A stretch of 33,718 bases of DNA from Fragilariopsis cylindrus CCMP1102 (taxonomy: Eukaryota > Bacillariophyta > Bacillariophyceae > Bacillariales > Bacillariaceae): NCBI GenBank assembly GCA_900095095.1, contig FMBT01000153.1, positions 1 through 33,718 of the forward strand, written 5' to 3'. The position numbers and the translations under genes are program-made. The notes under the pieces were generated by a model. It saw nothing but the letters and a program-made list of their open reading frames with translations. It searched no databases and was not told the origin of the DNA. This document shows positions 6,857-29,246 of the stretch, in pieces. Each line of letters starts with the position of its first letter. Position 1 is the stretch's first letter.

Positions 6857-7434
6857 GGTCGTTGTTGATGTTGTTCTTTTTGTTGGGTCGTACGACTAAT
6901 GATGTTGAAGGAATATTTGAATATGTGCTGAATATAATATATGAATATACCTCCATACACAATAAAAGAGGGAGCAAATGCTTTTCCGAAATATGTGGTG
7001 TATTTTTGAATGATTTGTCATTTGTCATTTGTCATCATTTTGGGTTCAATTTTGGGTTAATGATTCAGGGGAGTTTTAACCTATTTGAATATGAGAATCA
7101 TAACGTTAAACAAGATCATATCTCTAATTCTTAATACTTAAGCTGACTTTTTCAACTCGCGTACTTTTGATTGAAGATATCATACTCCGTAGTATACGAC
7201 TAATACATAGGACCTAGGGCCTTATTACAATTACTTGTTACTCCTTGATCACAGATCCCAGCTTGCAAGTTGAATGAGAACAGTATAGTTCGAGACTCCG
7301 CTCCGTCATATACAGTACTGCTGTACATTATTACACATATTATATATATTGTAGACTATTAGCTCACAGTATTACATCTTAATACAAACTAAACTGATTT
7401 CAATTTATCTGGTTCGTCTGTCTAATTCAAAAGC
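6857..7434. other. Intergenic region between divergent genes
   Basis: This separates the prenyl synthase (minus) from the SASA esterase (plus) and must hold both promoters. Short direct repeats are visible: TTTGTCA three times at about 7015-7035, and TTTTGGGTT twice at about 7038-7060. No gene was recognised. Confidence 0.45.
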
Positions 7435-9083
7435 ATGGGCTACTGCAATTCCATTGGTGCAAGTAAGAATGGGGATAGCAGAAAGGGAGGTTCTTCTGTA
7501 TCATCACCATCGAGAGCAATTTTGTCGTGGATGTTGACGACAATTCTCAATTTAAACCCCGCAAGTGCGAAGCCCCTCGCCGATAATTATCTTGCCAATT
7601 CCTACGACAACGATGAATGGGTCGACACGTTCCTCAACATTGGGAACGACTCGGTGTTTGGTTCCAAAATTGTGGGTTCCGATTTTGAAGGGGGAAATGT
7701 GGAAAATTTCCCTACGAATTCTGCACCTACACCGAAGCGATGCCGAACAATATGCTCCTCGGGGGGTCTAGTTCTTGCAGCCGATACTCTAGAGGACTGC
7801 CACGGAACGACGGCCGACATTCCTCGCTTCTTATTTGCTGGCCAGAGCAACATGGTCGGGTATTCGAATCAAGCGAAAGGAGGGTTGTTCAATGAGACAA
7901 TTTCATTTGTCAATGAGCGATGGGGGAAAATCACAGGGAAAAAAAAGAAGCGACGAAAGCGCGAGCGCAAAAAGAGAATCCTCGCCGATCTCACTGAGGC
8001 TTTTCGGACGTCCCAGGGAACCACAAATTCTTCCTCCGAAGCGATGGCCGATAAGATTTGGAAACTCGCCGGATCCAAAAAGAGGAAATCGGTCCTCAAT
8101 AATGAGACCATTACGGTTCCGCATCCAAAAAACGTATGTTCTTTTACCGACCCCACTCGAAGGGAATCCCCCGCCGGCCTGTGAGGTCCCATCTCACCGA
8201 CTTCTTGCGGCTCCGAGAGCGAGAACTACGGTCTCGAGCTGATGTTTTCCCAAAAATTCCCGAAACTCAAGAAACCGGGTATACCAAAAAACCAATTGGG
8301 ATCACCAAGGTGGCCGTGGGAGGTACGCTGATTGATCAATGGGTCAAACCTGGAATAGTAACTTTCCTACCCAAGAACCGAACTATTGGGAGTATCTGCA
8401 CGAAGCCATTTATGCCGATCACGGTACCATTGAGGCCTTTGTGTGGTTTCAGGGAGAAAACGACCATTTTAACCCGGACGAAACCGGACAAAGAAACACC
8501 GCAAGCAATATATCTAGAATATTTAAAGAAATTGGTATCGGACGTTCGGCATGACATTTATGAGGCCTACCAACAGAAGCGCAAACGCGATGGGATCCCA
8601 TTGGAAGATTCCCTATTTGCTACGAAGGAAGACATTCCAGTCGTTATTATGGAACTCGGTTGCTGGATTGGGAATGGTATCGCCTTAAGAAATGGAAGAG
8701 TCGCCAGGAAATATTATTAGGGCACAGAGACAATATGTCGACGAAGTGTAAGAACGTAATCGTCATCGTACTAACTTCGCTGCACTACACTGCACTACAC
8801 TGCCGCGTGCCGGATTGATTGATACCATTGCTCATTTATTTTATTTCACACTTTGTTTCTTCATCGCAGGGATGATAATTCTATTTTAGTCAACACTGGT
8901 ACGAGCGATATTGAGAGCGAGCGTCTGTCCTGCTTTTATCACTTTGATGCTGCGTCTCATCTCATAATGGGTGCCGAACTAGCAAAGGTAAGTTTCAATT
9001 ATTGGTTGGGTGTTGGGTGTGCGACCGATACGCACACTATACTATGATTGGTGACTGTACAGAACACGACTAGCAGTCCTTAA
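7435..9083 (+). pseudogene. SASA-domain (sialate O-acetylesterase-like) carbohydrate esterase, multiply disrupted
   Basis: SASA/SGNH esterases remove O-acetyl groups from sugars. The start region has a weak signal-like stretch (AILSWMLTTILNLNPASA). The nucleophile block is FLFAGQSNMVGY at about residue 138. Further family blocks lie in other frames: ITKVAVGGTLIDQW, FVWFQGENDHF, then IPVVIMELGCW, and finally HFDAASHLIMGAELA. Three exons are likely: to 8747, 8870-8987 and 9063-9083, with good GT-AG sites and a clean TAA. The first exon has an in-frame TGA at 8182-8184. It also has frame changes near 8270-8295, 8352, 8480-8500 and 8655-8694. The region 7560-8240 is visibly more GC-rich than its neighbours. 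It is either a pseudogene with intact splice sites or a real gene damaged by consensus errors. Confidence 0.72.
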
Positions 9084-9383: not shown

Positions 9384-10508
9384 TTATGACCACATTAACC
9401 AATAGTCTGGTCCATACGTTACCAATATTTCGTCACCTGCCTGAATATCCCTCGTCGCAACCGTTACAACATGGAGCCCTCTAAATTCAAAGCTATGATG
9501 AATTGCATTGGCTACTTCTAAACTCTTCCGAACATATGCAGCAACATTCTCCTCTACTCCGATATTATTGTTATTATCAGATTCTAATGCAATATGACCC
9601 GCACCATCGTTTGCATAATGACCATAATAGGCTGGATTGCCATCTAACGCTGGATGGCCCATGACGGAATATTGATCATCAACAGATACTACGTAGTCTA
9701 TTAAAGGAGGATTTGTTTCGGATCCATCGAAGACTGTATCGTCTTCCCAACGATCGTTATCGGGAACGTGGGTGCCCCATAGCACCATTTCATTATGGTC
9801 TTCATATTCGTCATCGGATTCATCTTCATGGTCTTCATCATATTCTTCATCATCATATTCATCTAATGAGGAGGGACTACTCATCATCTCATATAGCAAA
9901 GCATCTCCTGGATAGCACGTTATTATTTCTCCCTCATTTATGTCAACCGCTGCAAATAGACCACGTCCTGCCCCCTTAATGGTACTTGGACCGACTTTTG
10001 TTTGATGAAGAAATGGCATATGAAATCGACTAGAAAGTAGAACTTCCTTAATCATCTGATCAGTAGTAAGAGTAGTATCTATACTATCTCGCATTATTAT
10101 TTCATTGTCTTCTGCCGAAACTATGCTACTACTCTTTGGGAGGTGTACCTTATGAAGCTCGACGGCGGTATGAGATAGAAGCACTTTTTTCTTGTCCTTT
10201 AATAGTTCATTGATTTGAGACCGTATACTTATACTAGTGACGGAGCCTTCTTCTTCGCTTGTAACAATTTCATAGTCATCGTCAGGCTGTACGCTTTCGG
10301 AAGCGTAAATAGAGATGAGTTTATTATTTCGTGATACTACTGATAGTAGTGCATCATGTTCGCGATTTATTTTGCATATTCGGGTTGCGGCAGTACTACT
10401 TGTCGATTGGAGGAATGCAACTACTGTCGCTGGCAGCATCACTATTAGCATCAGCATAGGTAGTACTTGCAGTAGTAGTAGCAGCATCGGCGAGGAAGTA
10501 ACCATCAT
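9384..10508 (-). CDS. SET-domain protein with secretory/plastid-type leader
   Basis: The product is 374 residues; an in-frame TGA just upstream fixes the first ATG (MMVTSS). A long Leu/Met-rich hydrophobic core ends in ATVVAFLQS, resembling a diatom plastid bipartite presequence. The SET fold starts near residue 176 with IKGAGRGLFAAVDINEGEIIT, and an acidic DE-rich insert of about 25 residues follows. The later core has GHYANDGAGH, where classic lysine methyltransferases have NHSC. It ends with RDIQAGDEILVTYGPDYW, matching the C-terminal SET motif with its conserved Tyr. Probable role: S-adenosylmethionine-dependent protein lysine methylation, perhaps in the plastid as for Rubisco-type SET enzymes. 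Target and localisation are inference. It shares an upstream region of about 270 bp with the divergent first GH20 gene. Confidence 0.82.
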   Translation of the reverse strand: MMVTSSPMLLLLLQVLPMLMLIVMLPATVVAFLQSTSSTAATRICKINREHDALLSVVSRNNKLISIYASESVQPDDDYEIVTSEEEGSVTSISIRSQINELLKDKKKVLLSHTAVELHKVHLPKSSSIVSAEDNEIIMRDSIDTTLTTDQMIKEVLLSSRFHMPFLHQTKVGPSTIKGAGRGLFAAVDINEGEIITCYPGDALLYEMMSSPSSLDEYDDEEYDEDHEDESDDEYEDHNEMVLWGTHVPDNDRWEDDTVFDGSETNPPLIDYVVSVDDQYSVMGHPALDGNPAYYGHYANDGAGHIALESDNNNNIGVEENVAAYVRKSLEVANAIHHSFEFRGLHVVTVATRDIQAGDEILVTYGPDYWLMWS

Positions 10509-10779
10509 CAACCATCAAATAAATGAATGGAGAAATGAAGAATGACAATAAGATTTCATGTTTATTTCTTTCCGATTTACTGCGATTTTCCTAAAAACAA
10601 ACAATTTATTTAAAACTTTTTGATATGTTATGTAATGTCATGCATGATTTTATTATCACACTCCAAAAAAGTATGTTCAATTCTCTTATTTTTAAATTTG
10701 CAAAACATACTTCGTGTTATCTTCTTCTTCTAAAACCGAATGTATACTCAGAATACAGCTCATAAAATAATGATACAGG

Positions 10780-13700
10780 ATGGTCTCTTCTAGTAGATCA
10801 GTACTCGTTGCTATTGAGTTCTGGTGTTGCCTGGTCCTGCTGTTAACAATACATAAATTCTCGTGTTTGGTATCGGTCAGAGGTGCAACGGCAGTATTAG
10901 CCGAGGATCATCATCATGGCACGAATAATATTAGAAATAACACCACAACATTATTATCGCGTCCACCGTTTTTACTTGGAGTTATGGTTGATGCAGCTCG
11001 TCATGAATTTTCAGTTGATTGGTTGGAATTATTTATGAATGACATCCATCGAATGAATTTTAATGCAATTCATTTGACATTAACGAACGATCAGCGATTT
11101 TCTTTCACTACTACTGTAAAGGATAATAATAACGATGAAAAAAATAAAAACAACAACAACAATACGAGGTATTATACCGGACAAGATCTGAACTTTTTAG
11201 CACAACACGCACAATCACTCGATAATATGACGATTATTCCAGAAGTTAGTCTACCATTCTACGCGTCATCGTGGGTCGACGACAACGACAGGTATAATCC
11301 TACTGGTATACATAATATACAATTTGATCAACAGCAACAAAAACAACAACAACAACAACAACAACTTCGTTTGTTGCCACCACCATGTCCACGATATGTA
11401 TGCTCTACGGAACGGGCCATTCCGGTGTCAGGAACAAATGTTCCTCTAGATATTCGTCATCCACAAATTAAAGAAATTATTCGTCGAGTACTATTTAATG
11501 TTATTCAGAATTTAAACAGACCGCAATACATACATCTGGGTATTACTACTAGTAAGACTGGTAGTAGTAGTATCAGCAATAAATGTTGGAAGGAAGTAAT
11601 ACAAGATGGGGGTGAAGCACCTGATTATGATTTATTTGAGAAAACTTTAGCAGGAATCATTGTCAATGATCTGGGTTATCAACCACAACAAGTAATACGC
11701 GGTGTTGATGGTGGTGACAATCGTAAAAATAATAATAATGATAAATATAACATCGATAACGAATACGATGACAACTACAGCGACAACAGTGACAATAATA
11801 TAAAAAAGCTAATGGGGGACGCAATTTTATCACAGTATCAAGATCATCACAATCCACGATTGCTGCTAAATCGACAACACCAATATCAACAGCAACATCA
11901 TCATCAACAACAACGACAGCAACAACAACAACACGATAGTTCCTTTTTCTCTTATATACTGCAACCAAAAAAATTGAATATGGCAACGGCATTGCTTCAA
12001 GATACTGGATGGGATATATACCAACATACGATAGAAATCATGAATCTCCATCGATCGAATTACGATGATGGATCCTTTCGAGGAATGATAATTTCAACTG
12101 AAGCGATGCATCCGCGTTGGTTTGATGAACGGAATGTTAGAGGCCGATTGCTGGTTGTGTCTATGGCTGTACGTGACTTTGTCGAATCAGCAGCAACAGT
12201 AAATAATAGTAATAATAACAAAAGTAATGATAAAACAAATAATACGACGACGACGACGACGAAGAATAAGAAGTCAACGATGATGTATACTGATCAATCT
12301 GATTTTGAAAAATCGTACCTATTGCTTTGTAATAAATCATTTCAAAACGATTCCGTGACACCATCCTCGAAGTTTTGTCACCGTCTTGGAGGATCAGATT
12401 CTGAATCTTCTTCTTCCTCGACCACCGACGTGAACGATGGTATAGTAAATAGCCATAGGAAAGTGGGAAACAGTGTGTCTACCCACAATAATCAAAATCA
12501 CAATGATAGTAGACTACTCTTATATAAGAAAGGCTATTTAGAAATGTGGAAGAATTGGGCAGATGAAGTTTGTAATCGGTTTACAGAAACAAGGAAAGAA
12601 TTGGAGTTGCAAACTCTTTCTGTATCGATTACAAACAAGATCCAAGATGAGGCATTTGCAAGTTATTGGCAAGAATTGAGCGAGGATACTTTCAATCAGC
12701 AGGACATTATGACAACTATCAAAGATGAAAACACTATAAAATCGTTCGATGGGGAAAGCTCGATTCGCAACGATAAGAAAGGCGTGTTTATCAACGGGTC
12801 AAAGTTTGTGAGGTTCTCAGGATTTATTGTGGACACCGTGGACGATATAGTCTCGCACAAGGTGCTGCAAGACTTAATGGAACGTATTATGGTTCCGTTG
12901 GGACTGAATACGTTGCAACTGTCATTGATCAATCGTTTGGGGTGTTCACTTCAGCTTAAATCTATTGAGCAACTCTATCATTTGGTACCTAAACCAAGAA
13001 ACGTCGATCCTTTGTCAGATGATGTTTTGCGAAAGATTGTCCGTTCCAGCGAAAGACTTGCCATTGAACTTATTCCAGAAATTTCTATTACTACACAAGC
13101 CACAGGCTGGTATCATGCTGGCTTTCTAGTTGATTGTCCCAGCACGTTGTGTGATAGCGGAGAGATCGCAAACGATATCAATCGTGGATCCCTTTTGCCT
13201 GTAGTCCTCAATACGATACGAAAAATTCGAGACATCTTTTCCAGTTCATTCATCCACTTAGGTAGTGACGAACGCAACTCGAGTAAAGCCTGTTGGAAAG
13301 AGAGCGGCAAGGAACCAAACTATAACCTTTTTGAAGAACGACTGACTGGCTTGCTAAATGAAAGAAAATGGTACGACCCATCAACAAGCATCTTGCGCTG
13401 GGAAAACCGAGAAGGCATTATTTATCCTGAGCGAACTGGCGGGATCACGCATTATCAATACTCAACACCGAATAACAATTCTACAAGAAGTGATATCAAA
13501 ATCGATGATCCATTCTTTGTTAGTCTTTCTATCAGTCCAGAAAAAGAACCATGGACGATTTATCAAGAGACGCGAAGATCAGTTGGTGCAAGTCCACGAG
13601 GTATACTCGCTAAGATATCCCTGAAGGACTTTGAAAATCACAAGAAAGGTTTAATTGCGTTTGCCTTGGGACTTTCCTTGGATGTTCCAATCATGGAGGA

Positions 13701-13911
13701 TCCGACCGCCTTGGACGCATATATAGCAGACATCATTTGTGATGATGACGGCTCGTACTTATGTTCCGTTCCCTTGAAATATGAAGTGGGAAGATCAAAG
13801 CATACTACGCCCCGCGGTTTATTATTGTGCAAAGCTATGACAAGTTTGACGTCTCATTCTGTAATGCGATCGTATTCACAAAGTCTCGACTACATTGATG
13901 GAGGGGATTGA
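10780..13911 (+). CDS. Double GH20-like protein 1 (beta-N-acetylhexosaminidase-related), secreted
   Basis: This intronless frame of 1043 residues is intact. Residues ~8-33 form a hydrophobic signal or anchor. First GH20-like half, about residues 64-470: GVMVDAARHEF, LTNDQRF (102-107), IIPEVSLPFYASSW, CPRYVC (203-208). Its catalytic-loop equivalent reads YIHLGITTSKTG, so the catalytic Asp-Glu pair is missing. Second half, about 678-1000: GFIVDTVDD, LIPEISITTQATGW, CPSTLC, and FIHLGSDERNSSKACW with Asp830-Glu831 kept. Polyglutamine tracts lie at ~184-195 and ~369-385, with Asn/Thr-rich stretches near 475-500. Family enzymes cleave terminal N-acetylglucosamine or N-acetylgalactosamine. Activity of the first half is doubtful. 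It is the first of three tandem paralogues. Confidence 0.82.
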   Translation: MVSSSRSVLVAIEFWCCLVLLLTIHKFSCLVSVRGATAVLAEDHHHGTNNIRNNTTTLLSRPPFLLGVMVDAARHEFSVDWLELFMNDIHRMNFNAIHLTLTNDQRFSFTTTVKDNNNDEKNKNNNNNTRYYTGQDLNFLAQHAQSLDNMTIIPEVSLPFYASSWVDDNDRYNPTGIHNIQFDQQQQKQQQQQQQLRLLPPPCPRYVCSTERAIPVSGTNVPLDIRHPQIKEIIRRVLFNVIQNLNRPQYIHLGITTSKTGSSSISNKCWKEVIQDGGEAPDYDLFEKTLAGIIVNDLGYQPQQVIRGVDGGDNRKNNNNDKYNIDNEYDDNYSDNSDNNIKKLMGDAILSQYQDHHNPRLLLNRQHQYQQQHHHQQQRQQQQQHDSSFFSYILQPKKLNMATALLQDTGWDIYQHTIEIMNLHRSNYDDGSFRGMIISTEAMHPRWFDERNVRGRLLVVSMAVRDFVESAATVNNSNNNKSNDKTNNTTTTTTKNKKSTMMYTDQSDFEKSYLLLCNKSFQNDSVTPSSKFCHRLGGSDSESSSSSTTDVNDGIVNSHRKVGNSVSTHNNQNHNDSRLLLYKKGYLEMWKNWADEVCNRFTETRKELELQTLSVSITNKIQDEAFASYWQELSEDTFNQQDIMTTIKDENTIKSFDGESSIRNDKKGVFINGSKFVRFSGFIVDTVDDIVSHKVLQDLMERIMVPLGLNTLQLSLINRLGCSLQLKSIEQLYHLVPKPRNVDPLSDDVLRKIVRSSERLAIELIPEISITTQATGWYHAGFLVDCPSTLCDSGEIANDINRGSLLPVVLNTIRKIRDIFSSSFIHLGSDERNSSKACWKESGKEPNYNLFEERLTGLLNERKWYDPSTSILRWENREGIIYPERTGGITHYQYSTPNNNSTRSDIKIDDPFFVSLSISPEKEPWTIYQETRRSVGASPRGILAKISLKDFENHKKGLIAFALGLSLDVPIMEDPTALDAYIADIICDDDGSYLCSVPLKYEVGRSKHTTPRGLLLCKAMTSLTSHSVMRSYSQSLDYIDGGD

Positions 13912-14174
13912 GGACAATGCAGTAAAAAAATCATCGAATAGATGTTGTTACAGCATATAAAGGAGATGCAAGGAATCGATATACGACCTATGATTCTTTC
14001 TAAAAATCAGCGACCTGATTTGCTCATGAAAGTGATGCGTAGTCAATCCAGTGGTGACTAGCTAGCAATGTTACAACATCATGGGGAATAAGAAGCTTTT
14101 GAAGTATTCTTTCGCATCATGTACATTAAATTCTTACTGCATGATAGTCATAAATTCACCGTTTTGACCATCTA

Positions 14175-14206
<32 letters not shown>

Positions 14207-14451
14207 ATATTTTAAATTATTATCATGACTTACATAATAATATTATTAATATTATTTATTTAGATTTATGTAGGTTTGGACGCCCAAAAACTAATAAGAA
14301 AATAAGCGATAATTTTTAATATTGCTAAAAATAAGAAATCCATTGTCCCTGTCTTTCTATGGATCCCTACTGGACGGACCTCTTCGTTTCGCTCCATGGC
14401 AAAACACGCGTGCGTGCAAATAATTTTTCTTTGGAGGACACCAAAAAAGCT

Positions 14452-14459
14452 TATAAATA
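14452..14459 (+). promoter_or_regulatory. Possible TATA box of GH20-like gene 2
   Basis: TATAAATA lies about 350 bp upstream of the ATG at 14807. It is the best TATA match in this spacer. The implied leader is long, so the assignment is tentative. Confidence 0.3.
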
Positions 14460-14735
14460 CACTACTACCGGAACCACTGTACAGTAGCTAATTCACAAGT
14501 GAGGGCTTTATATGACTGTAGTACGCGACCAACTACAAGTAATTACAATATAATATAATATTATAATAATAGAATAGCTGGCCATTTGATAACTTTAGAT
14601 CCGAGGAGGAAGGTTTCGACAAAATCTGTTAGATTGGACAATATTCTATGGTGATTTATTTTTGTACAAAAATAATCTAACACTTTATACGTACAGTTGT
14701 AAATTGTTTGTTTGTTTAAAAATACACTGTAGAGA

Positions 14736-14747
14736 GAAAAAGAGAAA

Positions 14748-14779
<32 letters not shown>

Positions 14780-14800
14780 AAAAGAGAAAGAGAAAGAGAC
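14736..14800 (+). repeat. (GAAA)n purine microsatellite
   Basis: A nearly pure purine tract of GAAA and GAGAAA units ends six bases before the start codon of GH20-like gene 2, so it would form the end of the 5' leader. Confidence 0.8.
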
Positions 14801-14806
14801 AGCAAC

Positions 14807-17800
14807 ATGGGGGAATCAGGATTCGATACCAATCCTCGTCGTCAATCCATGAAACAGTTACGACGTGTTCCTCCGACGAGGAAGAGGAACAGCAAAAATC
14901 GTCGACGTTCATCTACCCTATCCGCATTATCTCGGAAAAAGAATGTCGCTGTGATATTTTATGCAATCGTAGCGTTCTCGATCCTATCTCTTTGTGTACA
15001 ATTTAGTAGGGACCACCACGGGATACAAACAACGACGGCAGAAGGAAACTTTTTAACTATTCCGAATCCGCCGGAACGACGAGATGCTCATGCAAAGAAA
15101 TCACGACAACTAAAAGATCCAGGAGAGGGCGACAACAAGAATCCGAAAACAGAAAACGAATCTGCCGTGGAACACAAGAATGACAACACAGGAGAAAATG
15201 ATGACAATGAAGACAACACAGGTGACAATAATGATGACAATAATGATGACAATAATGATGACAGTAATGATGATGGTAATGATGATGGTGATGATGATGG
15301 TAGTGATGACAATAATGATGGTAATGATGACAATGATGACAATGATGACAATGATGACAATGCTGATAATGATGATAACGATGATAATGATGACGATGGT
15401 ACTGATGACGATGGTACTGATATCTCGGTCAAAAAAATACTCCGTGATCGTAAAAATAAAGATATTAAAAATGGTGCTACAACATCGGCTAGAATGGGTA
15501 TAAAAGAAAAAAGAAAAATTCGCGACAATTGGAATGGTCGAAAGAATAAGAACCATGTCCATAATCATATTGAAAGCACGACTAAAAGAATTCCTAAAGA
15601 TTGGTTTGATTTTATTCTGCCAACGCAAAGACGTTTTCATAAAGCAAGCTCAACTGAATACATCGATGTTGCCAATTTTTCTATGGGAGAACCTATTGAT
15701 ACTCTCAGTAATAAATTCGATATTTCGTCCCTTCATTCTACCAATCTTACAAACGAACTTCCACATCTTGGGTTCTCTTAGACGCTGGTAGACACTATTT
15801 TCCGATAGAATGGATCAAAAGGATGATTGACGTTTTATCGATCATGAATTACAATCTAATACACTTCCGTCTTACTGATGATCAAACGTTTAACGTCCAA
15901 CTTGAATCACAACCACTGTTGGCATATCCGACCACATTAAACAATAATACTAAAGTCTACAGTCCAAATGAACTTCGAGATATTGTCAAGTATGCGAAGA
16001 GCAAAGGTATTCAAGGTAAGAAAAAGTGTGTGCAACATAACCAGTAGCGACGATGGATGCATCGACAACAGAGAGACATTATATATTTGATACATTATTT
16101 CATATCTATACTAACTATTATTCTTCTTCCACGAATCAACAATTATATTATATTGAATCTCATTTAAGTCGTTCCTGAAATCAATGTCCCAGGTCATGCT
16201 GCTTCGTGGGGTGGAATACCTGAGCTGATTGTTCAATGTCCTCAATTCATATGTCGGAAAGGATATGGGGTCCCATTAAATGTGAGTAGTCCTAAATTAC
16301 GACCAGTTTTGAAAGATATATTGGAAGAAATTGTGGATATTTTTGATAAACCACCATATCTACATTTGGGTGGCGATGAGGTTGACATGGCAAAGCCTTG
16401 CTTTGATGAGATCGGAGAGACTATGTTTGATTATAACGATTTTGAGAATATGCTTAGATCGGTTCTTTTGGAAGTTGGTTACAATGACACACAGGTTATA
16501 CGTTGGGAAATGACACATATCCCAAAAGGTCTCACTCGAGCGGGTGACATAACGCAATTTTGGTTTGGACACCTGGGAGAAGAAGTTTGGTTGCAAAAGT
16601 ACGGTAAAGATTTTTCTAAACCGGTGTTTTTATCTACGGGTTTGTACTTTGATACGAACGAAGAAGAGTCAGCGTGGGATGTTTATGTCAAAACTAAAAG
16701 ACTGAAACACAACCAGCATCAAAAATCTCCTATTCTAGGCGTTATTGGAGGAACTTTCGAGTTAAGTACACAATACTGGCATGATCGTAACGTTATCGGT
16801 AAGCTTTTAGCAGTATCGATGGGAGTGTCAAACATTAATACGTTTGATAGATTGGAATTTTTTAGCCGGTATAGAGAAATCTGTAAGTCGACCGGTTTTG
16901 ACGATAGCGTGTGCAACTTGTATGGACTTGCCCCTAGACGTTACGAGGAATTCAGAATGGAGCTAAAAGATGGAAGGGGAGAGGATTGTGTGTGGACGAA
17001 CTGGATTGCCAACGTATGTAATCGTCTGACAAAAGGCGAACATGGAAGAGGATACCAACAATTATCAACCAACAGAGGATCTCGTAGTAAAAAAATAAAA
17101 AATGCGTACGAGACAGCACAAGTCGCGAAGGAATGGTTCTGGTTGTCATATTTTAAGGACACTGAATGGGAAGTTATAAATACTGATACTACAAATAAAA
17201 CTCTCGATGACATACTCAGTCATGTTCATGAAGCGTTTCGGGTAAAGAGATTCGTGCAACATACTGGGATTATAATGGATATCGCCCAATTCCCAGTGAG
17301 AAAAATCGAAAGACTGGAAGAAATCGTCCATAAGACGATGAGTCGATTGGGACTCAATACTATTCAACTTCGTCTTATAAATGATTTCTCCTTCGCGTAT
17401 TATTCAAGTCGTCACGCGCATATGTTCTATATGCCACCGATCGGTATCCCTGACTCGATATCAAACGAATACCCATCGATGAAAGATTTGATGGTGTTTC
17501 GAGGATACGCAGCCACTCTTGGTGTTGCAATTATGCCCGAAGTTTCCATCAGCACCAATGCTGGCGGATTATACAGATCGGCCTTTAATGTGGAATGTGC
17601 GAACTTTTTATGCGAACACGGGAGATACATTCCACAAGATATTGGCAATGCCAACTACGTTCCTGTAGCTTATTCGATAGTCCAGGAATTACTGAAATTG
17701 TCAAGTAGCAAATACTTACATCTTGGATACGACGAACGCGAGATGAGTACACCTTGCTTTCTTGAAGCGAGTATAACACCAGACTTTGATCAGTTTGAGG

Positions 17801-18504
17801 CTAAACTTCAACAACTTCTTAAGCTTGCGGGCGTTAAAAGTGATCGAGTGGTGAGATGGGAAAATATGGAAAAGGTACACTATCCTGGAAGGCTTGGTGA
17901 TATCACACAATGCAGCGCCGGCGAAAGTTGTGAATCAATTGCTATTTCAAAAGGAAGTAACAGCGAAGATGTTACCAGCTCCCCATGGTTTGGTACTGTT
18001 GACATTCTTCGAGGAGGACCTTGGAAGATTTACGAAACGACATATGATTTGGCTTCTCGCTCACCTATCGGTCTAATGGCAGAGGTTGGTGGCTTAAGAA
18101 GGGACAATTTCAGCGAAAATTTTCTCAGCTACCGTTTGTTAGCATTCAATATAGGGACCTTGGATTTACCTAAGATGGATAGAGATAAATTCGAGAAAGC
18201 ATTTGTTGATACCTGCTCTGCGCTTGCATCCAAAGAGGATTTCGATAATGACGGTAAGATGGCGGCTACTTTAATTTTGAAGTGTAAGGGCTTCGCTAGT
18301 ACAAACGATGATGCTCTATCGATTGTACAAATCAACGAAGATAAGAAATTGCAAGATTTCGCTCAAGCGATATGTAAGGAAAGAACCATGAGGACCGTAT
18401 TTCGTGGGATGAAAAATGCAAGCAGCATCCCCACTGCTATTTCTATGCATGAAGGAATAGTAGACCGAGAACATGAAGAAATATCTCGAGGAAGGAAGCA
18501 TTAA
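14807..18504 (+). CDS. Double GH20-like protein 2, type II membrane/secreted (one frameshift)
   Basis: Repaired length is about 1181 residues. Exon 1 (14807-16015) encodes a basic N-terminus and a signal-anchor helix at about 47-66 (VAVIFYAIVAFSILSLCV). A long Asp/Asn-rich linker follows (15190-15420), then the GH20 start. The frame stops at TAG 15779 after HLGFS; one extra G in the GGG at 15770-15772 restores LGVLLDAGRHYF. Intron 16016-16168 has phase 1 and GT-AG ends. Exon 2 runs 16169-18504. First half: LTDDQTF, VVPEINVPGHAASWGG, CPQFIC and HLGGDEVDMAKPCF near residue 470, a complete GH20 catalytic motif. Second half: HTGIIMDIAQF, IMPEVSISTNAGG, CANFLC and HLGYDEREMSTPCF near 920. This is the copy most likely to be an active hexosaminidase. 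The extracellular or vacuolar side is inferred from topology. Confidence 0.85.
15190..15420 (+). repeat. In-frame GATGACAAT-type repeat coding an acidic linker
   Basis: Imperfect tandem trinucleotide-based repeats (GAT, GAC, AAT) encode runs of Asp and Asn between the membrane anchor and the first GH20-like half. The repeat also creates long spurious open frames on both strands. Confidence 0.8.
15770..15772 (+). other. Single-base frameshift in GH20-like gene 2
   Basis: CTT-GGG-TTC runs into TAG. Four G instead of three would give CTT-GGG-GTT-CTC (LGVL), which matches the start of the GH20-like domain in the two sister genes. Confidence 0.75.
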
Positions 18505-19193
18505 GTTTATTACATGCTGACAGCAAAATTGTAAAAGACAAAGACTTTGTAAATTAAATTTTATAATTATATACATGTACAGTATACTTCACATTCATTT
18601 TTGTTTTTCTTTCATGTAAAATATAACACACGTGATTTCTAGAATAGCGCATAAGCTCAGCCCTATACTGCCAAAGGTATACTGCTGATAAGGACTATAA
18701 GCCTAGTCTAAAGTTATTCCCATAGACTTTCGGTAATTTAACCTAGTACCTAGTAAATCAAGTTGGCAATCTACGATTGTACCGATAGATTCGAAGATAG
18801 GGGGGCTAGGGGAATATTCCTCTTTTCGCTCATTTTTTCAATACGCGAACAAAGGCGTTAACAGCGGTTACTCTATATTTTTTTTGAATTAAGGGTTACT
18901 TTCCACGAAAATTGCCGACAACACGACAACACTAACCCACTTCACAACTAACAATTAAATTGTCAATAAGAACTACTTCGTCCTATACCAGTTAACATAT
19001 TTTTATTTCTCCAGACAACCCAACATTACTGATTGCCGAAGGAGAAGAACAATGGCTGCATCCTCACTTGAAGCCCGAGAAAGCAAACAAATTATATGAT
19101 TGGATTGAATCGAATCTAGAATCAAGGAGCTATTTTTTCTTAAATTGCATAGAACCATTCTATATTCTACACATTGTAAGGCAATTCTTTAAA
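18505..19193. other. Intergenic region between GH20-like genes 2 and 3
   Basis: AT-rich 3' flank followed by the upstream region of gene 3. A 15-codon upstream frame (19052-19099) starts with the well-placed ACAATGG. No other gene was recognised. Confidence 0.45.
19052..19099 (+). promoter_or_regulatory. Upstream open reading frame of GH20-like gene 3
   Basis: ATG GCT GCA opens a 15-codon frame ending in TGA, 94 bases before the proposed main ATG and in another frame. Its start context is stronger than that of the main start. It could repress translation, or show that an upstream exon or frame error has been missed. Confidence 0.35.
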
Positions 19194-22100
19194 ATGTCAA
19201 TGGTGTCAATGATGCCTCGCCATCCTTCGGCGTCGATACAACAACGGCCAAAGCGACGTGTATTCCGAACTGTTTATATCTTACAACTTTTAGTTGCTCT
19301 GATATTCTCTGGTCTTATGATGTCTATATGGTTAATGATTCAATTAGAAGTATCCTATAAGGATGTTGTTACTGAAAATCCAGGCGGCGTGGTTTTGAAA
19401 AGACGTACTAGTAGACGACGGATGGCTTTATCCACAGAAATTCGTACTATTTCTGTCGATGACGATGATAATATATTAGAGCAACAAAACCAAAATCGTC
19501 CCTCGGTAGTGGGTGATGGCGCCATAATTGATCGAAGCCGTCATCATCTATTATCGAAATCACGATTATCCAACAACAATACACATGTAGTATCATCCAT
19601 GTCGAATGCGATGTCATTTCCTCCTCTTCCGCCTTCTCTCGATTATCTTGGTGTATTGATAGATACAGGTCGTCATTATTTCCCTCTAGGGTGGTTATAC
19701 GAACATCTTCGTCATTTACATAACATGGGATACAATTATATTCATTTCCGTCTGACAGATGATCAAAACTTCGTTCTTAATCTCACAATACCATCATCCA
19801 CCGTAAATCATAATGCTAATAATGATGCTACTACTGATAACGGTGGTGGTACTAGCTTTGCATTTGTCGCGCGACAAGAACATCCTGACGGCAGTAGCAG
19901 TAGCAGTAGCAGCAGCAATGGAGGAAACGGAAATGTTTACCAACCCCATGAATTGTCTGAGTTTGTTAAATTTGCTAAGGATAAGTACAACATTACGGTT
20001 ATACCAGAAGTCAATATTCCGGGCCATGCAGGTGCATGGGGTGCCAACAAGGACTATCCTGACCTTGTTATTTCCTGTCCAGAGTTTGTTTGTTCAAAGG
20101 GTTATGGTGTACCACTGAACGTGTCGCATACAGAATTGCCAAGAATATTAAGATATGTACTAAAGCAGGTTGTAGAAATATTCGATTATCCTCCGTTTTT
20201 ACATTGGGTGGTGACGAATTGCATATGTCAACACCCTGTTTGGAGGAAGCTGGAATACTTGATCCATCATCGTGGTTAAAGGAATCTGTCCCATACTTTG
20301 AAGAATACGTCCTTCGACCAATAGTGGCAGAGCTTGGATATGGTCCCCATCAGATATTGCGATGGGAAACAAGAACATCACACAGACAACATCGATTTGG
20401 TGGAATTACTCATACTGGGAATCTACTCCGTTACATCATCATCTTACGATCCTTATGCTGTTTCTACGGGATTATATTTGGACGTTGTTGGAACTGGTCG
20501 TGGATACGGTCATTGGGATTATTTAGCTGCTCAAAAATTGATAATCGACCTTCAGTTGAATCCACCCTTTGCTATTGTGGTGGGCACATTTGAATTGAAT
20601 ATGGAATTTTGGAGGGATCGTAACGTTTTGGGGAGACTATTGGCAATTCGAATGGGTGTGTCTTCTCCTACCACCACTACAAGTGTAGCTACGACTTCAA
20701 TGGATCAACAACAACGAGTGCAAAAACAAGTCGTGGACGACGTCACCGTCTCTCGTACTTCAATGGAAGACTTTCGGAGACAGTACATTACAAAATGCAA
20801 TTCGATTTTCAATTCTTTAAAGTACGAGTCTATGTGTCAAAATGCTGGATGGCCTCTCCTAGATGATCGTAGCTATCAAAAGAAATGGACGTGGGTATGG
20901 AAGCAATGGAAAGATGGGCTATGTAGGTACGTTCTTGTCGATGCAAAATTCATGATGGGAATTTATTAGTAAACATTCAACTCACCATATTCTTACTATT
21001 TCTACTTATTCGTCGGTACGGTGAATAATTGATTCTAATCATTCGCTCATATCATCTATATTATTACTCCATATCTATTCATAATGATAAGTGGACTGAC
21101 ATATCCCGAGCTAACTGTTCATATCAAAAAAAATGATGTAAGATTATTGCAGCGAGAAGCCAATTACTACTATTGGAATGAAATATTATCATTGCCAGCA
21201 TCGTCTGATTCGTTACTTTCTGGTGTGGTTACTCGACCACTGAACCAAAATACCACTATCGCAGCAGAATCTGCTACGAATATAATACCGAATGTTGGCA
21301 TCTTAGTAGATCTTGTGCAGGATCCGTTATCCCAACAAGAATTTCAGGAATTGCTTAAAGCTATTCAGCCTCTTGGTTTTAATCTGATTCAATTACGGGT
21401 AACTGACGATTTTGGACAAGTGATTGACTACGATTCTATTCGAAACGTTGCATGCCATCACACTTCCTCCCAAGTTAACAAGAGCAATGGGGAGAATCCA
21501 ATCGCATACAAATACTATGGTCGACATCGTTTGGAACAAATGGTTGAATGGGCAAATAAGGTTGGAATTCAATTAGTACCTGAGATAAATTTAGCAACAA
21601 ATGGAGGTGGCTGGTACAAGACTGGATTTTTAATGGACTGTCCGGTCACGTTATGCTCATCAATGAAGCAAGGTGTTGCCTTCGATGTGATTGACAAGAT
21701 CGAAAGCGTCATTCCGGTGGTGATGGCTGCTATTCGTGAATTGCGAGATATTTTCTCCTTGTCGTCGTCGTCGATGCAGTTCTTACATTTAGGATCAGAC
21801 CAACGAGAAAAAGCCATATTAGGGTGCTTTCGAGAGGCTGGTCATACTATCTCCGAATCGCATGCTGCATTGAGTCGATTTGAAAGAAAATTAACAACAG
21901 CTCTGTCGACGATTGGTATTGATCAAAATCATATCATACGATGGCACAATCAAGAAAATATCCAATATCCAGATCGAACGGGAAGTATTACCCATTACAC
22001 TGATATTTCTGATATGGTAAATAATGAGTTAAACAGTTACTTTTTCGGGACAGTACATCTAACTGGTGAAATGACACCAAGGGAGGTTTATCTGGCAACG

Positions 22101-22444
22101 CGACGCTGGACGATGAAATCGCCATATCCTCATGGCATTGTTGCCAGGGCGACCAATGGACAAATCCCAAAGCTCGCTCATTTAGTGGCCTTTACCATAG
22201 GACTTAGACGAACTGAGAATGAATTTTTACCTACAACGAAGAGGAATTTCAGAGAGAATTTGACGCGTTATGTGAGCGACTACATTGTGCTGATAAAGAG
22301 CCTGTCGTAAGAGCAACCAATAATGAATTGATGTCAACAGCTTTGAATTTGATGGAGTCCTGCGCCGAACGAACGACAAATGTTACCACGAAGGGGTCTA
22401 GGGCATCCCTTCTGTGGTCGCGAAGAGAACAATTATATCCATAG
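19194..22444 (+). CDS. Double GH20-like protein 3, type II membrane/secreted (three frame breaks)
   Basis: About 1028 residues after repair. Start MSMVSMM; a signal-anchor helix lies at about 27-52. First half: LGVLIDTGRHYFPL, LTDDQNF, VIPEVNIPGHAGAWG, CPEFVC. A missing T near 20204 breaks FLHLGGDELHMSTPCLEE, which is then read in another frame; the full GGDE motif is present. A second change lies near 20425-20445, just after FGGITHTG. Exon 1 ends at 20926 (AG before GTACGT) and exon 2 starts at 21092. Second half: VGILVDLVQD, LRVTDDFG, LVPEINLATNGGGW, CPVTLC and HLGSDQREKAILGCF, with catalytic Glu changed to Gln. A last missing base near 22230-22240 hides the true C-terminus, FDALCERLHCADKEP, which ends at TAG 22442. 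It is the third member of the tandem array. Confidence 0.82.
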
Positions 22445-22808
22445 ATCAACCTCTGAAGTCCTGTGTTGCTATTATTAAGTACAAAAACTTTCTCATTCTA
22501 GCTTGTAATGGTTTACTAATAGTTTGAGACGGAATTAGTTATATAGAAATTGTACGCCTGACATGTATATGAACAAGATAAATACAGTCTACTAGTCCTA
22601 TTACAACTATATGTACCAATATTCTTCATCCTGGTCTCCTAACTTTGTCAATGTATCGATCTTAAAGCCTGTATAGATATTCTCAGGTGTGATCAACTAC
22701 TACCTCTTTCTTCTTGTAAAGATTTTCGATCGAATTATATGTTAACTGGGTGCCAATACCATAGTGACTCACTCACTCGAGATGAAATCTCGGAAATAAT
22801 CAAGCACT
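22445..22808. other. Intergenic region between convergent genes
   Basis: AT-rich 3' flanks of GH20-like gene 3 and DGAT2. Nothing else was recognised. Confidence 0.4.
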
Positions 22809-24220
22809 TTAACTTTTTAGTGTCTCTCTGATTCCCCATTTGGAATGTGGAGTCGTATTCCTTGGCCGTTTAACTGCTCGCTATATTTATATAGTTACAT
22901 TTCCTTTTTTTACTTACCGAATTTCCAGAATTCGATCCTTAACATTTTTGGAATGCAACTCTATCAATGCATTGATATACTTGGTATGATATTCGTCGAC
23001 CAAGTCATCATCTGGTTTTGCCCCGATTACTTTGGGTCTTGGCGTTGAAATCGGCTTTCCGATCAATACTCGTACCTGTCGTTTGTGTGGAATTGGTGTA
23101 CCCCATCGCCCATGGAACAAGGGAAGGGCAATCCCAAAGTTCTTTTGAATCCAAAGTCGGGGTCCTAAAAGGAATGAATAAGTCTACAAAATCAAAGAGG
23201 TAATATTATCGAATATACAGATATTAATCTGTCAGTAAACCGTGGCAATATCAACATAATTAATAGCACCAAAACCAAAAACAACAGTAAAACTCAAAAT
23301 GACATCGTTATAAAACGCACCGTGTATAAATCATTATTACCAACACCAAAAACGGGGACCAAATCAGCTCCATAACTTAAGGCCAATCGAACAAAGCCCT
23401 TGCGTCGTTTTAATACTACTGTATCCTTTCCGGGTGTCGTATACATGCTCTCCTCTTCTCCTCCGGTACAAACAAATAAGGAACGTCCCTCTTCCAAGAC
23501 TTTGCTGGCAACCGTTCTTGATGCATCGACATATCCCATATTCAGAAACATTTCTCTTACCAGTGGTATTTTAAATATAATCGTTGCAGCCAAACCAGTT
23601 AGTTTACAACCTACTAAACCCGGAAATTGCACGTCAAAGGAACTTCCGACCGTCGAAAATAAACCCAATGGTGTACAATGAATTCCGTGAGGATGAACTG
23701 CAATCACGTATTGTTTATGGGGCGGAAGCTTAGCCACATCATTATCATTATTATTATCATCTGACTCTGACGACGACCATGGAACGCATGTCATTTGAAG
23801 GTAATCTTGATGAGAATATAAAAATTTTGCTGATGCTCTTTCTAGAATATTCCGATTGTTGGGACAACAGTTAGCATCCTTCACGGATAAATGTTGTTGG
23901 TTGAATATCAAGATAAATACCACGTAGTAGATCGAAAATGGGATGATGAACCATTGTGCCACCATCCAAACGAAATTAGAAGGAAGAAGCTGTGTATATT
24001 CAAGCAAATAAACGATACCCACACCGAATAATATAGGAATAAGTATCAGACCAAAAAATCCTCCAACGACGAGACCTGACATAACTAATTCAAAACCAAG
24101 CGGGGATGTAACATAATGGAGACATGCTGTTGTCACAGCAACTGGAAACCAAATCAATTCACTAGCCCATGGAAGTGATCGGTATGAGCAACTTGTGTTA
24201 TTTTCGTGCTGTTGGCTCAT
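22809..24220 (-). CDS. DGAT2: Acyl-CoA:diacylglycerol acyltransferase type 2 (DGAT2)
   Basis: DGAT2 makes triacylglycerol from diacylglycerol and acyl-CoA at the endoplasmic reticulum. Exons: 24220-23321, 23183-22918 and, less certainly, 22860-22809, for about 405 residues. Long hydrophobic segments occupy about residues 23-115 as the usual membrane hairpin. Family motifs: YVIAVHPHGIHCTPLG, FVCTGGEEESMY, LKRRKGFVRLAL, LVPVFGVGNNDLYT. Across intron 1 the reading continues TYSFLLGPRLW, then LPLFHGRWGTPIP and VLIGKPI, and the H-x-x-Y-like EYHTKYINAL. Intron 1 is phase 0 with a weak GTGCG donor. Intron 2 is only 57 bp and leads to a 16-residue tail ending WGIRETLKS. The final acceptor choice is my inference from frame and similarity to typical DGAT2 tails. 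Confidence 0.9.
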
Positions 24221-24723
24221 ACTTACAACAATGTCAAATGAACAGTGAACAAACAGTGAACAATGAACGCAGTGAAAATAAATGAAATTATGATAATTGG
24301 GCTAAAAAAATTACATAGCAAGTGCATACAGTAGTCGTACAAAATTCCACCAATCATTTCTCGTACAAGCGTATTTGCTCTCGATTTGCTCTCGCATTAA
24401 TCTTCATAGATTTAAGCCTCTCCATATTTGTGCGAAGCAACTACGTGTGACGTCTACAGCAACATAATGAAACGAGATGACGAAACCACTACGTACAGAG
24501 GGTAATAATTATTACCCTGACTACTACGTACAAGTTTGTGCCAAATACCTCTCTCGTCCAACCATCGTCACAGAGATGAAACAAAAGTAAGTAGCAGGAC
24601 TACAGACACCCATTCTGCTCAAAGTATTGAATGTATCTGGTCTATAGCCGCCCGCCCATCGCAACCCAATCGATACTTAGAAGCCATCAATAATTTAAAA
24701 AGGCTAGGAGAAAAACATCAACG
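24221..24723. promoter_or_regulatory. Divergent promoter region between DGAT2 and the kinase
   Basis: Both flanking genes start here. It contains TGACGTC at 24448-24454, a half-CRE type site, and a 20-bp perfect palindrome at 24499-24518. The palindrome is flanked on both sides by CTACGTACA in direct orientation. Which gene these sites serve is unknown. Confidence 0.4.
24499..24518. repeat. Perfect 20-bp palindrome in the divergent promoter
   Basis: AGGGTAATAATTATTACCCT is its own reverse complement. CTACGTACA occurs just left and again just right of it. It could be a dimeric transcription-factor site. Confidence 0.7.
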
Positions 24724-27339
24724 ATGGCGAATCGCAATCTACTAAAACGAATACCAAAATATGATGGAACGCGACAATTTCCATATGCAGTTGTTGCCGT
24801 GGCCGCTACATCGATGATCGGAATTTTGACAGCATCATCGACATCATCCAATAATAATAATACCGCTATTGAAGAAGATGATTCTTCCTCACGACAACAT
24901 CTTGCATCAAGCAGCGAGAGTCATCATAATATTTACAAAAATACTGATACGAACAGTACAACAATAAGCAATCCGTCATCATCAAAGTGGACACGACGAC
25001 CCGAAACAATATTGTACAATACCCTAAGCAACATTAACAACAGCATATCCAATTCGATGACAGCTGATCCTTGTTTATGCGAACGCGAACGAAAAACGCA
25101 ACAAGTCCGTGATGAAGATCCGAGATTCACAACCAATCCACGTCCACAATCTATTTCTACACAAGATTATAAAGATAAGAGTGCACTTGTACGTAAACAC
25201 AGGACGCTCCGTCTTCTGGACATGAAAAAAACAGAGGCCTCAGTCGATTCGAAATATGATTGGAACAAGGATGAGATGGTCGGTGAGGGAGCATATTCAA
25301 AGGTCTATCAGGCAGTATGCAAAGATACCGGTGAAGTCGTTGCTCTGAAGAATATATCAAAAAAGTATACCGATTCACAATACTTTCAACAAGAAGTGGA
25401 GGCAATGTTGTACATTCAAGAGAGGGGTGGACATCCTCGTGTTATTACATTACATGAGCACTTCGAGGATGGAGATTCATACGTTCTTATTCTAGACTTT
25501 ATCCGGGGTGGAGAACTTTTCGATCATTTGATTGAGATGGGTGCATATTCTGAAATGGACGCCTCCAGAATCGTTCGGGAAGTTGCATCCGCTTTACTAT
25601 TTTTGCATGGTATCGGTTTAGTGCATGCCGATCTTAAACCGGAAAATATTCTATTAACTACGACCCGACGAGGAGATTCTGTCGTAAAGGTAGCTGACTT
25701 CGGTACGGCAATCTTTGTTGGGAATGATAGCGATACTACCGTAACTAACAAGAATAAATTACAACCCGAAAAAGTCTACGGGGCACCTACGCCCGCCTAC
25801 TCACCACCAGAATCTATTCTTCGAACATCTCCTATACAACCCTCCATGGATATGTGGTCTCTGGGTGTAATTTTGTTCATTATGCTAACTGGGTGTCACC
25901 CGTACGACGTTAGTGGAGAATCAACAGACGTAGAGATTGAAGATCGTATCAAGGACACAAAATATAAAATACCGATTAATGATCCAGGAATTGCCGGACA
26001 TCTATCAAAAAGTGCTAAGGACCTTATAACAAAACTAATGAATCGAGATTGTACAAAACGATTAACAGCCTATCAAATGCTTCAACATCCATGGGTACAA
26101 GGAGAAACGGCTACCACAGAAATCATTCAAGGAAGTGACCAGCGGTTGTCAAAATTTCGAGTATTTAAATCACGGCTTCAGGCGAAGTTCTTTGAAAATG
26201 CCATCAAGTGGAGTGATTTAAACAACGATCCTGACACTGATAGTAAACGGAAAACTGGTTTGATTGAACGGTCGTTTAATGCCTTTGGTACAGATAAGGA
26301 TGGTTTTTTAGGTTCCAAAGAGATATTGGGAACGGCTGACGGTAATATTGAAGAGATCGTAGAGGGAGAGGGACCGACTATCAATATATCCGATTACGAA
26401 AATTTGCTGAGAGAAAACATGCAAAACAAATACTATCCAGCGGGACATACTATTTACCAGGAAGGTGATACTGGTCGAGCCATGTACTTTTTGGAAAGTG
26501 GAGCCGTAGAAGTCGTTGCCAATGGGACAAGAGCTGTTCGAACAGGTGGAGATTTTTTTGGTGAAGGAGCCTTGCTGCATCCTCAAAAGATTCGATCAGC
26601 GTCGGTTCGATGTTTAACGCCCATTCATGCACTTGAAATCAGTCAAGAATACTTTGAAAAGTATATTGCTTCGTCCAGTTCGGGTTTGTACCTAACATTG
26701 AAGAAAAAGATAAGATCCGAAAGCGCAATCGTGCTAAGACAATATTAAGAATGCAAAAAGATTTGAAAACCGTGGCAAGCCTCGTAAAGCTAAGTTCTAC
26801 AAGGATGGAGACGATGGAGATACGATGTGGATCTTGGAAAAGGGAAGGTTAATATCGAGGTATCTAGTGGTCAGACCGTTTTTTCGGTATACCCCGGTAA
26901 CATTTTCGGCGAGCATGCACCTATCACGGGCAATAGGAGAAATTGTGATGCGACATGCGTCGCAAAGGAAGGCTGTATAGCTCAGGAACTTTCGGGTCTT
27001 CAATTTCGCAAGTTATTGGAATCTTCTACAAGCGTAAAGGATTCGATTAAAGAATTGTATCTCCGACGAGAATTCAAGAAGGCGATCGTTCTGAGGATGC
27101 GTAGGAGCTTTCCCTACGATGATCCTGAGGAGGCTTTTGCGGCTGCCGATGAAAAACGTGTAGGGCGTTTGGATAGAGAGAATGTTTCTAAATTAATGAG
27201 GGAAATGAATCCAAATTATACGAACCAGGATATAGATGATGTTATACACTCTTTGAACTTAACGGGATCAGGAAGTGTTACATTTGCTGAAATGAAAAAG
27301 GCTCTCATTGGAGATAAAATTACTGCTGCTTCTATGTAA
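24724..27339 (+). CDS. Ser/Thr kinase with C-terminal cyclic-nucleotide-binding domains and EF-hand-like segments (three frameshifts)
   Basis: About 872 residues after repair. A short N-terminal hydrophobic segment (20-38) precedes a Ser/Asn-rich region. The kinase domain starts near residue 178: VGEGAYSKVY, VALKNI, catalytic loop HADLKPEN (HRD Arg replaced by Ala), DFGTA, and PPES in place of APE. A degenerate EF-hand (GTDKDGFLGSKE) follows. The first cyclic-nucleotide domain has GHTIYQEGDTGRAMYFLESG and FGEGALLHPQKIRSAS. The second has DGDDGDTMWILEKG and FGEHAPITGNRRNCDATC. The end holds two more degenerate EF-hand loops. Three single missing bases near 26701, 26780 and 26842 separate the two cyclic-nucleotide domains into four frames; together they restore register, which supports one gene. 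The kinase precedes the binding domains, the reverse of PKG. Confidence 0.83.
26700..26846 (+). other. Cluster of three single-base frameshifts in the kinase gene
   Basis: One base each seems missing at TTGAAG (about 26701), GCCTCG (about 26780) and GGGAAGG (about 26842). Reading through with all three restored gives EKDKIRKRNRAKTILRMQKD, then RKAKFYKDGDDGDTM, then KVNIEVSSGQTVF, in cyclic-nucleotide-domain order. Confidence 0.7.
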
Positions 27340-29021: not shown

Positions 29022-29055
<34 letters not shown>

Positions 29056-29246
29056 GATACTGAAGACGATGAAGACGATGGTGTTGATATGCTTCTTCCA
29101 TACGTATTTCTCATTCTGGTATTACTACTAGAAGTAGAAGAAAACCCACTGACGACATTGATTGACGATGCCGTTATTGTCAGAATAACAAGTAGTAACA
29201 AAAATAGTTGACTTTGGCAACATGAGGATGATGATAATGACGACAT
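27831..29246 (-). CDS. TAB2: TAB2/ATAB2-family RNA-binding protein, plastid
   Basis: Tab2 in Chlamydomonas and ATAB2 in Arabidopsis promote translation of photosystem I psaB mRNA, and the family is confined to oxygenic phototrophs. Exon 1 (29246-28588) has a signal peptide ending VVSGFSST, an ASAFAP-like plastid site, then Ser- and Asn-rich stretches (GAT/AAT microsatellite). The family core is WELDCYSRPVIAPGGKKLWEVLITD, VNSKEVRQTVEDLM, STIRFFRGAMFNMI and PSRGTYSIAQWLEERHKDVYP. The phase-2 intron 28363-28587 joins MEG to YQANMG. Exon 2 (28362-27831) carries LRGEKYAFVALPLAEF, ILTQRPEPLAAWLAG and a C-terminus ending GFWLMRELPAGI. Total 396 residues, near the family norm, and the frame is intact. 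Confidence 0.92.

Follow-up and report, generated by a model that had tools for sequence, protein, structure and literature searches.

Three consecutive genes in a 33,718-nucleotide contig of Fragilariopsis cylindrus each encode two tandem barrels of GH20, a well-studied glycosidase family, and a comparison of catalytic residues indicates that the two barrels are not equivalent. In genes 2 and 3 the front barrel looks active and the rear barrel inactive, and in gene 1 both barrels look inactive. We consider it rather probable that genes 2 and 3 encode membrane-anchored exo-β-N-acetylhexosaminidases of the secretory pathway in which a dead second barrel acts as a built-in partner, and that gene 1 encodes a pseudoenzyme. 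GH20 itself is known; what is new is the conserved pairing of a catalytic-type with a degenerate GH20 barrel, together with a conserved paralog in which both are degenerate. The whole stretch of DNA analysed is referred to below as the window (G000:C95:1-33718, within a 68-Mb eukaryotic assembly).

Structure of the three genes

Three plus-strand genes fill positions 10780-22444, and their boundaries were verified. The gene structures and coordinates bear out the tandem same-strand array of the original prediction, and are as follows.

10780..13911, plus strand: gene 1, single exon, 1043-residue open frame; two degenerate GH20 barrels (putative pseudoenzyme class), PF00728 in each half
10798..10854, plus strand: hydrophobic segment at the N-terminus of gene 1, either a signal peptide or a signal anchor, from hydropathy and the model helix
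10975..12600, plus strand: gene 1 barrel 1 and extension; IHLGITTSKT at 11530-11559
12763..13779, plus strand: gene 1 barrel 2; HLGSDERN at 13249-13278
14807..16015, plus strand: gene 2 exon 1; putative type II anchor, stalk rich in Asp and Asn, beginning of barrel 1
16016..16168, plus strand: gene 2 intron, GT-AG, 153 bases
16169..18504, plus strand: gene 2 exon 2; remainder of barrel 1 with LHLGGDEVDM at 16360-16389, then its extension, which runs to about 17046, and barrel 2, starting about 17254, with LHLGYDERE at 17716-17742, second extension
19194..20926, plus strand: gene 3 exon 1; putative type II anchor, barrel 1; LGGDELHMSTP at 20204-20236
20927..21091, plus strand: gene 3 intron, GT-AG, 165 bases
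21092..22444, plus strand: gene 3 exon 2; barrel 2 and extension; FLHLGSDQREK at 21780-21812, with Gln instead of Glu

Genes 2 (14807-18504) and 3 (19194 to about 22444) thus each carry a single GT-AG intron. That of gene 2 is supported by C158, another contig of this assembly, in which the spliced frame is open over 1181 residues and joins the conserved residues. C158 carries the same region (G000:C158:30000-43500 against window 10192-23686) at 99.94-99.95% identity across the compared 13.5 kb, the differences being gaps of one or three bases at four places plus one two-base change. Three one-base deletions (following 15771 in gene 2, and 20203 and 20411 in gene 3) occur in the window only and break the reading frames; since C158 does not have them they are probably sequence errors, and the gene 2 protein was therefore taken from the C158 copy. 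Two other apparent frame breaks in gene 3, near 20430 and near 22235, are common to both contigs. The C158 copy may reflect redundancy in the assembly, a pair of near-identical haplotypes or duplication of the segment, with the single-base gaps pointing to sequence errors. The gene 2 stalk contains a long Asp/Asn-rich tract encoded by a short DNA repeat (15150-15430), and barrel 1 of gene 1 is interrupted by Asn-rich and Gln-rich inserts.

The two shared breaks in gene 3, together with the absence of the catalytic set from either barrel of gene 1 (see below), could be read as signs that the array is falling into decay, with gene 1, and perhaps gene 3 as well, being a pseudogene or a remnant of recent tandem copying. 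This explanation seems to us quite improbable, since gene 1 is open for 1043 codons and is matched over 99% of its length, at 36-46% identity, by six relatives that show the same losses, the second barrel of gene 3 pairs with P0055 of Pseudo-nitzschia multistriata at 100/100, and the three window breaks in genes 2 and 3 are not present in C158.

Both halves of each protein belong to GH20

The expectation that both halves would be GH20-related was confirmed. When each half was submitted separately to hmmscan, 6/6 passed the PF00728 cut-off of 22.3 bits: the halves of gene 1 scored 43.5 and 25.8 bits, those of gene 2 (C158 letters) 139.8 and 26.0 bits, and those of gene 3 69.9 (using the piece 19194-20198, ahead of the first frame break) and 34.6 bits, the second halves of genes 1 and 2 thus passing barely. 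The two halves of gene 2 also match each other (BLASTP, 26% identity over 339 residues, E 5e-28). Structure matches assigned the barrels tested to the GH20 triosephosphate isomerase (TIM) barrel fold; in this comparison barrel 1 of P0006 filled the list, barrel 2 of that protein was barely tested, and barrel 1 of gene 1 likewise. A chance or low-complexity match is ruled out by the curated cut-offs and the structure matches.

The GH20b family was absent from Pfam scans of P0001, the six halves and the gene 2 leader (14807-15769), and from those of P0004, P0006, P0015, P0055, P0071, P0106 and P0110, so that the N-terminal domain of the GH20 Model A architecture (GH20b-GH20-helix) was not found in the proteins scanned. 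Searches across the assembly found, among the best candidates, which were those scored, the three array genes, the C158 copy and one ordinary-looking GH20 gene (L011, G000:C35:54937-55848, minus strand), which lies in pieces with stops between them, probably introns or errors.

Second barrels have lost the catalytic set

Nine positions were examined, which we take to be HexB R211, D240, H294, D354, E355, W405, W424, Y450 and D452, placed through alignment. The residue table comprises 229 barrels (99 first, 97 second and 33 single) aligned with the HexB stretch using MAFFT; the domains derive from 141 proteins, and those under 290 profile positions were dropped. Proteins of the gene 1 class contributed 9 first and 10 second rows, P0001 and its 98% copy P0061 being counted as two, which leaves 90 first and 87 second barrels for the main counts.

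The complete nine-residue set is present in 84 of these 90 first barrels and in 33/33 single-barrel rows, and in 0/87 second barrels, or 0/45 if those with a gap are set aside. Five of the six incomplete first barrels miss only the Arg position, at a truncated start, and P0056 has genuine losses (RGHNDWRND at the nine positions) and is a separate case from the gene 1 class. Barrel 1 of gene 2, in the C158 copy, has all nine residues, as does barrel 1 of gene 3 when judged through its relative P0055 only. In the second barrels, W424 is kept in 0/87, Y450 in 2/87, H294 in 3/87 and R211 in 13/87, and the catalytic Glu is replaced in 17/87 (13 Asp, 4 Asn); barrel 2 of gene 3 reads HLGSDQREK, with Gln at the Glu position. 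Misalignment is unlikely for the losses of Arg, His and W424 because well-conserved anchors adjoin them (G-V/I-x-x-D, P-E-I...A-G and I-T-Q/H); D452, which is gapped in 42/87 second barrels, is a weak position there, and the Tyr region is also less sure.

Members of the gene 1 class have a complete set in 0/9 first and 0/10 second barrels. Neither residue of the Asp-Glu pair survives in any of the nine first barrels, and the second barrels keep the pair (10/10) and have lost Arg and Tyr, with His lost in 9/10. Within gene 1 itself the pair is lost from barrel 1, where the HLG motif reads IHLGITTSKT; His, two Trp and Tyr are also gone, and Arg and D452 are retained. Its barrel 2 retains Asp-Glu and lacks Arg, His and Tyr. 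The original prediction overlooked this loss of the catalytic set, which by alignment extends to all second barrels examined and to both barrels of gene 1.

First barrels also depart from the ordinary GH20 pattern at β-8, where the motif GGE..xW.E (HexB W489 and E491) occurs in 0/99 first, 0/33 single and 0/97 second barrels. A motif of the EL...W.DRN type is found instead in 76/99 first and 27/33 single barrels. These are motif counts, the MAFFT placing of W489 and E491 being unreliable and discarded. With the usual motif absent and another in its place, barrel 1 is a distinct diatom type.

An old duplication in a diatom family

The profile search reached 791 proteins, the best 120 of which were listed. 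We fetched 139 relatives, of which 12 are labelled with an organism; judged from their genera, all of these are diatoms. A lineage-specific, membrane-anchored or secreted glycan system, as originally suggested, remains the best reading. The closest labelled relative, P0003 from Bacillariaceae sp., is 89% identical to gene 2. Among 141 classified proteins, which include window gene 1 and C158 gene 2, 94 have a first barrel followed by a second (a few with a fragment of one barrel), nine more have the same layout with a split match, in three the second barrel is still matched by the first-barrel profile, and 35 show a single barrel. The double-barrel array is therefore real, but the architecture is not peculiar to this locus, being shared by most classified relatives. 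Nitzschia inconspicua P0015, P. multistriata P0055, Seminavis robusta P0029 and Fragilaria crotonensis P0106 belong to the same two-barrel family; all four are named hexosaminidase by similarity, and the names shown are silent on a layout of two barrels, one of them dead.

The profiles of first and second barrels match each other along their whole length (351 columns, E 2e-89), helical extension and its conserved cysteines included, and the model of P0006 has a like helix run and final strand after each barrel (strands 405-413 and 848-856). In a tree of 83 rows selected for breadth (30 first barrels, 31 second, 14 single and 8 outgroup), 31/31 second barrels form one clade (support 100/99) and all diatom barrels split from the bacterial and human ones (100/99). 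The single clade of second barrels implies one old duplication of barrel plus extension, before the three paralogs split; a recent duplication confined to this locus is ruled out, as the clade spans many proteins. Second barrels are nested among the first barrels in this tree, and a tree constrained to keep first and single barrels in one group is worse by 1.7 log units (approximately unbiased test, p-AU 0.448), which leaves the direction undecided. The earliest-branching second barrels, from three proteins, one of them from F. crotonensis, score better with the first-barrel profile than with the second-barrel one, and the catalytic set is already gone from them.

Single-barrel rows are spread among the first barrels in the tree (9 changes), a pattern consistent with barrel 2 having been lost several times or with tandem copying of only part of a gene, and some may be truncated predictions. 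Tandem copies recur elsewhere: scaffold 31 of Nitzschia sp. Nitz4 has a two-barrel gene at 47767-50844 and a one-barrel gene at 51671-53310. P0034, P0044 and P0128 probably sit together (longest contig 13718 for each), as probably do P0036 and P0119 (25701). As to other sources, a mobile or viral origin was rejected after a single scan of viral contigs yielded no relative. A bacterial source was also rejected: 17 GH20-type loci in genome contigs match mainly within barrel 1, at 24-32%, and seven of these form one outgroup with HexB (100/99).

Putative membrane anchor and proposed mechanism

The N-termini of genes 2 and 3 have a basic head followed by one hydrophobic segment, as in type II membrane proteins. 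In gene 1 the 19-residue Kyte-Doolittle mean from residue 7 onward is 2.16, and residues 5-27 are helical in the model. Long leaders were collected from 116 proteins, genes 2 and 3 included, that have a Met start and in which the first profile-start match lies at or beyond residue 100 (a few are truncated, P0002 for instance, and there the match is to the second barrel); 84 of the 116 have a hydrophobic segment, and in 67 at least two net positive charges precede it. The conserved cysteines and sequons fit a location in the secretory lumen.

The predicted architecture runs from an anchor through a stalk to a barrel 1 of catalytic type, followed by a helical extension that bears cysteines, and then to a degenerate barrel 2 that has this extension too. 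Barrel 1, predicted to be active, would use the usual GH20 chemistry through its Asp-Glu pair. Barrel 2 would not cut but would pack onto barrel 1 and help to shape or position its active site, a task that in human HexA and HexB falls to the second subunit and here would be done inside a single chain. Gene 1 would be a paralog that persists as a pseudoenzyme, perhaps as a glycan-binding or assembly partner. We propose a non-cutting partner role for barrel 2 because Model A GH20 sites need a remote element, which, in passages of PMC4449183, comes from a long loop of the enzyme itself, from another domain or from a dimer partner, and because the same passages place the dimerisation of HexA and HexB in their catalytic domains.

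Several observations weigh against this proposal. The remote-element rule is stated mainly for enzymes that bear GH20b, and GH20b was not found in the diatom proteins scanned. The 33 single-barrel rows suggest that some proteins can do without barrel 2 (some of these rows perhaps being truncated predictions). To judge from the motif, the departure at β-8 may mean that the bound sugar, or even the activity of barrel 1, is different. Finally, second barrels keep D354 in 81/87, E355 in 70/87 and W405 in 71/87, more than pure decay predicts, and P0045 keeps 7/9 residues in its second barrel, the best case, with three others at 6/9.

These retained residues could instead mean that barrel 2 is a lectin-like (carbohydrate-binding) or differently catalytic barrel with its own ligand, contacted by the retained Asp-(Glu/Asp/Asn/Gln)-Arg motif. 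The counts for D354 and E355 and the four best-preserved second barrels speak for this, as do the Asp and Glu of 10/10 gene 1-like second barrels and the 19-row alignment A1, in which the next Arg is invariant and so are two residues, Arg and Asn, in a stretch reading Arg-Trp-Glu-Asn. We nevertheless regard it as unlikely: the GlcNAc-site (N-acetylglucosamine-site) residues W424, Y450, H294 and R211 persist in merely 0, 2, 3 and 13 of 87, the Glu is replaced in 17/87, and the retained residues may be structural, inherited with HLGxD.

Candidate substrates

The most speculative part of our proposal concerns the substrate, which may be the terminal GlcNAc of N-glycans, with N-glycan trimming as the leading candidate role. 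Diatom glycoproteins are thought to lose terminal GlcNAc through HEXO enzymes, for which experimental proof is described as missing in the relevant passages of PMC12507850; the portion of PMC11775308 on Phaeodactylum tricornutum gives the location of the HEXO step as undetermined, and a passage of PMC4584364 notes two putative diatom enzymes for GlcNAc removal. In flies, Fdl removes terminal GlcNAc in the secretory pathway, according to an excerpt of PMC4006722. A bolder version of our proposal, which we put forward only tentatively, is that pennate diatoms possess an old class of fused hexosaminidases in which a dead barrel 2, duplicated once and retained throughout the lineage, is the obligate partner of the active barrel, that the gene 1 class is glycan-binding or regulatory, and that together they provide the missing GlcNAc-trimming step.

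A serious alternative to N-glycans, possible but in our estimation not the likelier one, is that the substrates are cell-wall, chitin-like or sulfated glycans, encountered at the surface or within the pathway of silica deposition. The long, putatively anchored stalks and the expansion in diatoms agree with it, the β-8 change suggests an unusual sugar, and diatoms have chitin-pathway genes, with 17 β-N-acetylhexosaminidase unigenes given for the centric Thalassiosira weissflogii in a passage of PMC8307304. Pfam, however, revealed no carbohydrate-binding module in the proteins scanned. Moreover, the D452 position is Asp in 90/90 first barrels outside the gene 1 class, presumably the neutral-sugar type and not the sulfate-binding type, which counts against this alternative.

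Comparison with known GH20 systems

Human HEXA/HEXB employ two chains where the diatom proteins have one, and have a GH20b domain and a β-8 Trp/Glu motif, neither of which was found here; the diatom proteins have a putative hydrophobic anchor and a barrel 2 that is inactive by its residues. Fdl and the plant HEXO enzymes have one GH20 barrel. The likeness to these lies in the removal of terminal GlcNAc in the secretory pathway, which for the diatom proteins is only proposed (PMC4006722 and PMC12507850, in the passages on this step).

The original prediction knew of no named precedent for a two-barrel GH20 chain, and here it has to be corrected, as StrH of Streptococcus pneumoniae is laid out as GH20-GH20-G5-G5 in the passages concerned of PMC4449183 and PMC4161441. 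StrH resembles the diatom proteins in having two tandem GH20 barrels per chain, with GH20b found neither in StrH (PMC4449183) nor in the diatom proteins scanned, and the diatom chains might accordingly be imagined as a counterpart with two working modules that arose by independent duplication. We give this very little credence: both StrH modules recognise and act on terminal GlcNAc, as excerpted from PMC4161441, whereas the complete catalytic set is found in 0/87 diatom second barrels, which are degenerate as judged by residues only, and a StrH-like pair of active modules is disfavoured by the residue table. StrH also has G5 repeats, none of which were seen in the diatom proteins scanned. The diatom duplication is probably separate from that of StrH, given that diatom first and second barrels group apart from the outgroup in a tree that did not include StrH. 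The open-licence PMC literature, searched partly for other points, yielded no description of the diatom two-barrel form, and a single search of it returned no paper joining GH20, hexosaminidase and pseudoenzyme.

Flanking genes

Upstream of gene 1, two overlapping plus-strand frames (7426-8717) resemble one broken or frameshifted carbohydrate esterase of the SGNH/SASA type. One frame contains AGQSNMVG, which we take to be a motif of that type, and the other has a weak PF03629 match (E 0.005, below cut-off); these frames could represent a glycan-related neighbour of the array. The following flanking genes, identified by Pfam matches, look unrelated to it.

3414-5401: MATE transporter
5602-6273: polyprenyl synthase
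9387-10514: SET protein
23297-24301: DGAT
24694-27336: kinase with cyclic nucleoside monophosphate (cNMP)-binding domains and EF hands
27834-29258: Tab2
30286-31797: Nop56-like protein

Significance

A conserved fusion of a live with a dead barrel would provide a natural covalent pair in which the need for a remote element from a partner can be tested. The family also supplies candidates for the GlcNAc-removal step that is assigned to HEXO enzymes in diatom N-glycosylation, where it is assumed (PMC12507850, in the passages on that pathway), and so bears on glycoprotein production in diatoms. The arrangement is old, and it may be the diatoms' way of trimming the sugars on their own proteins.

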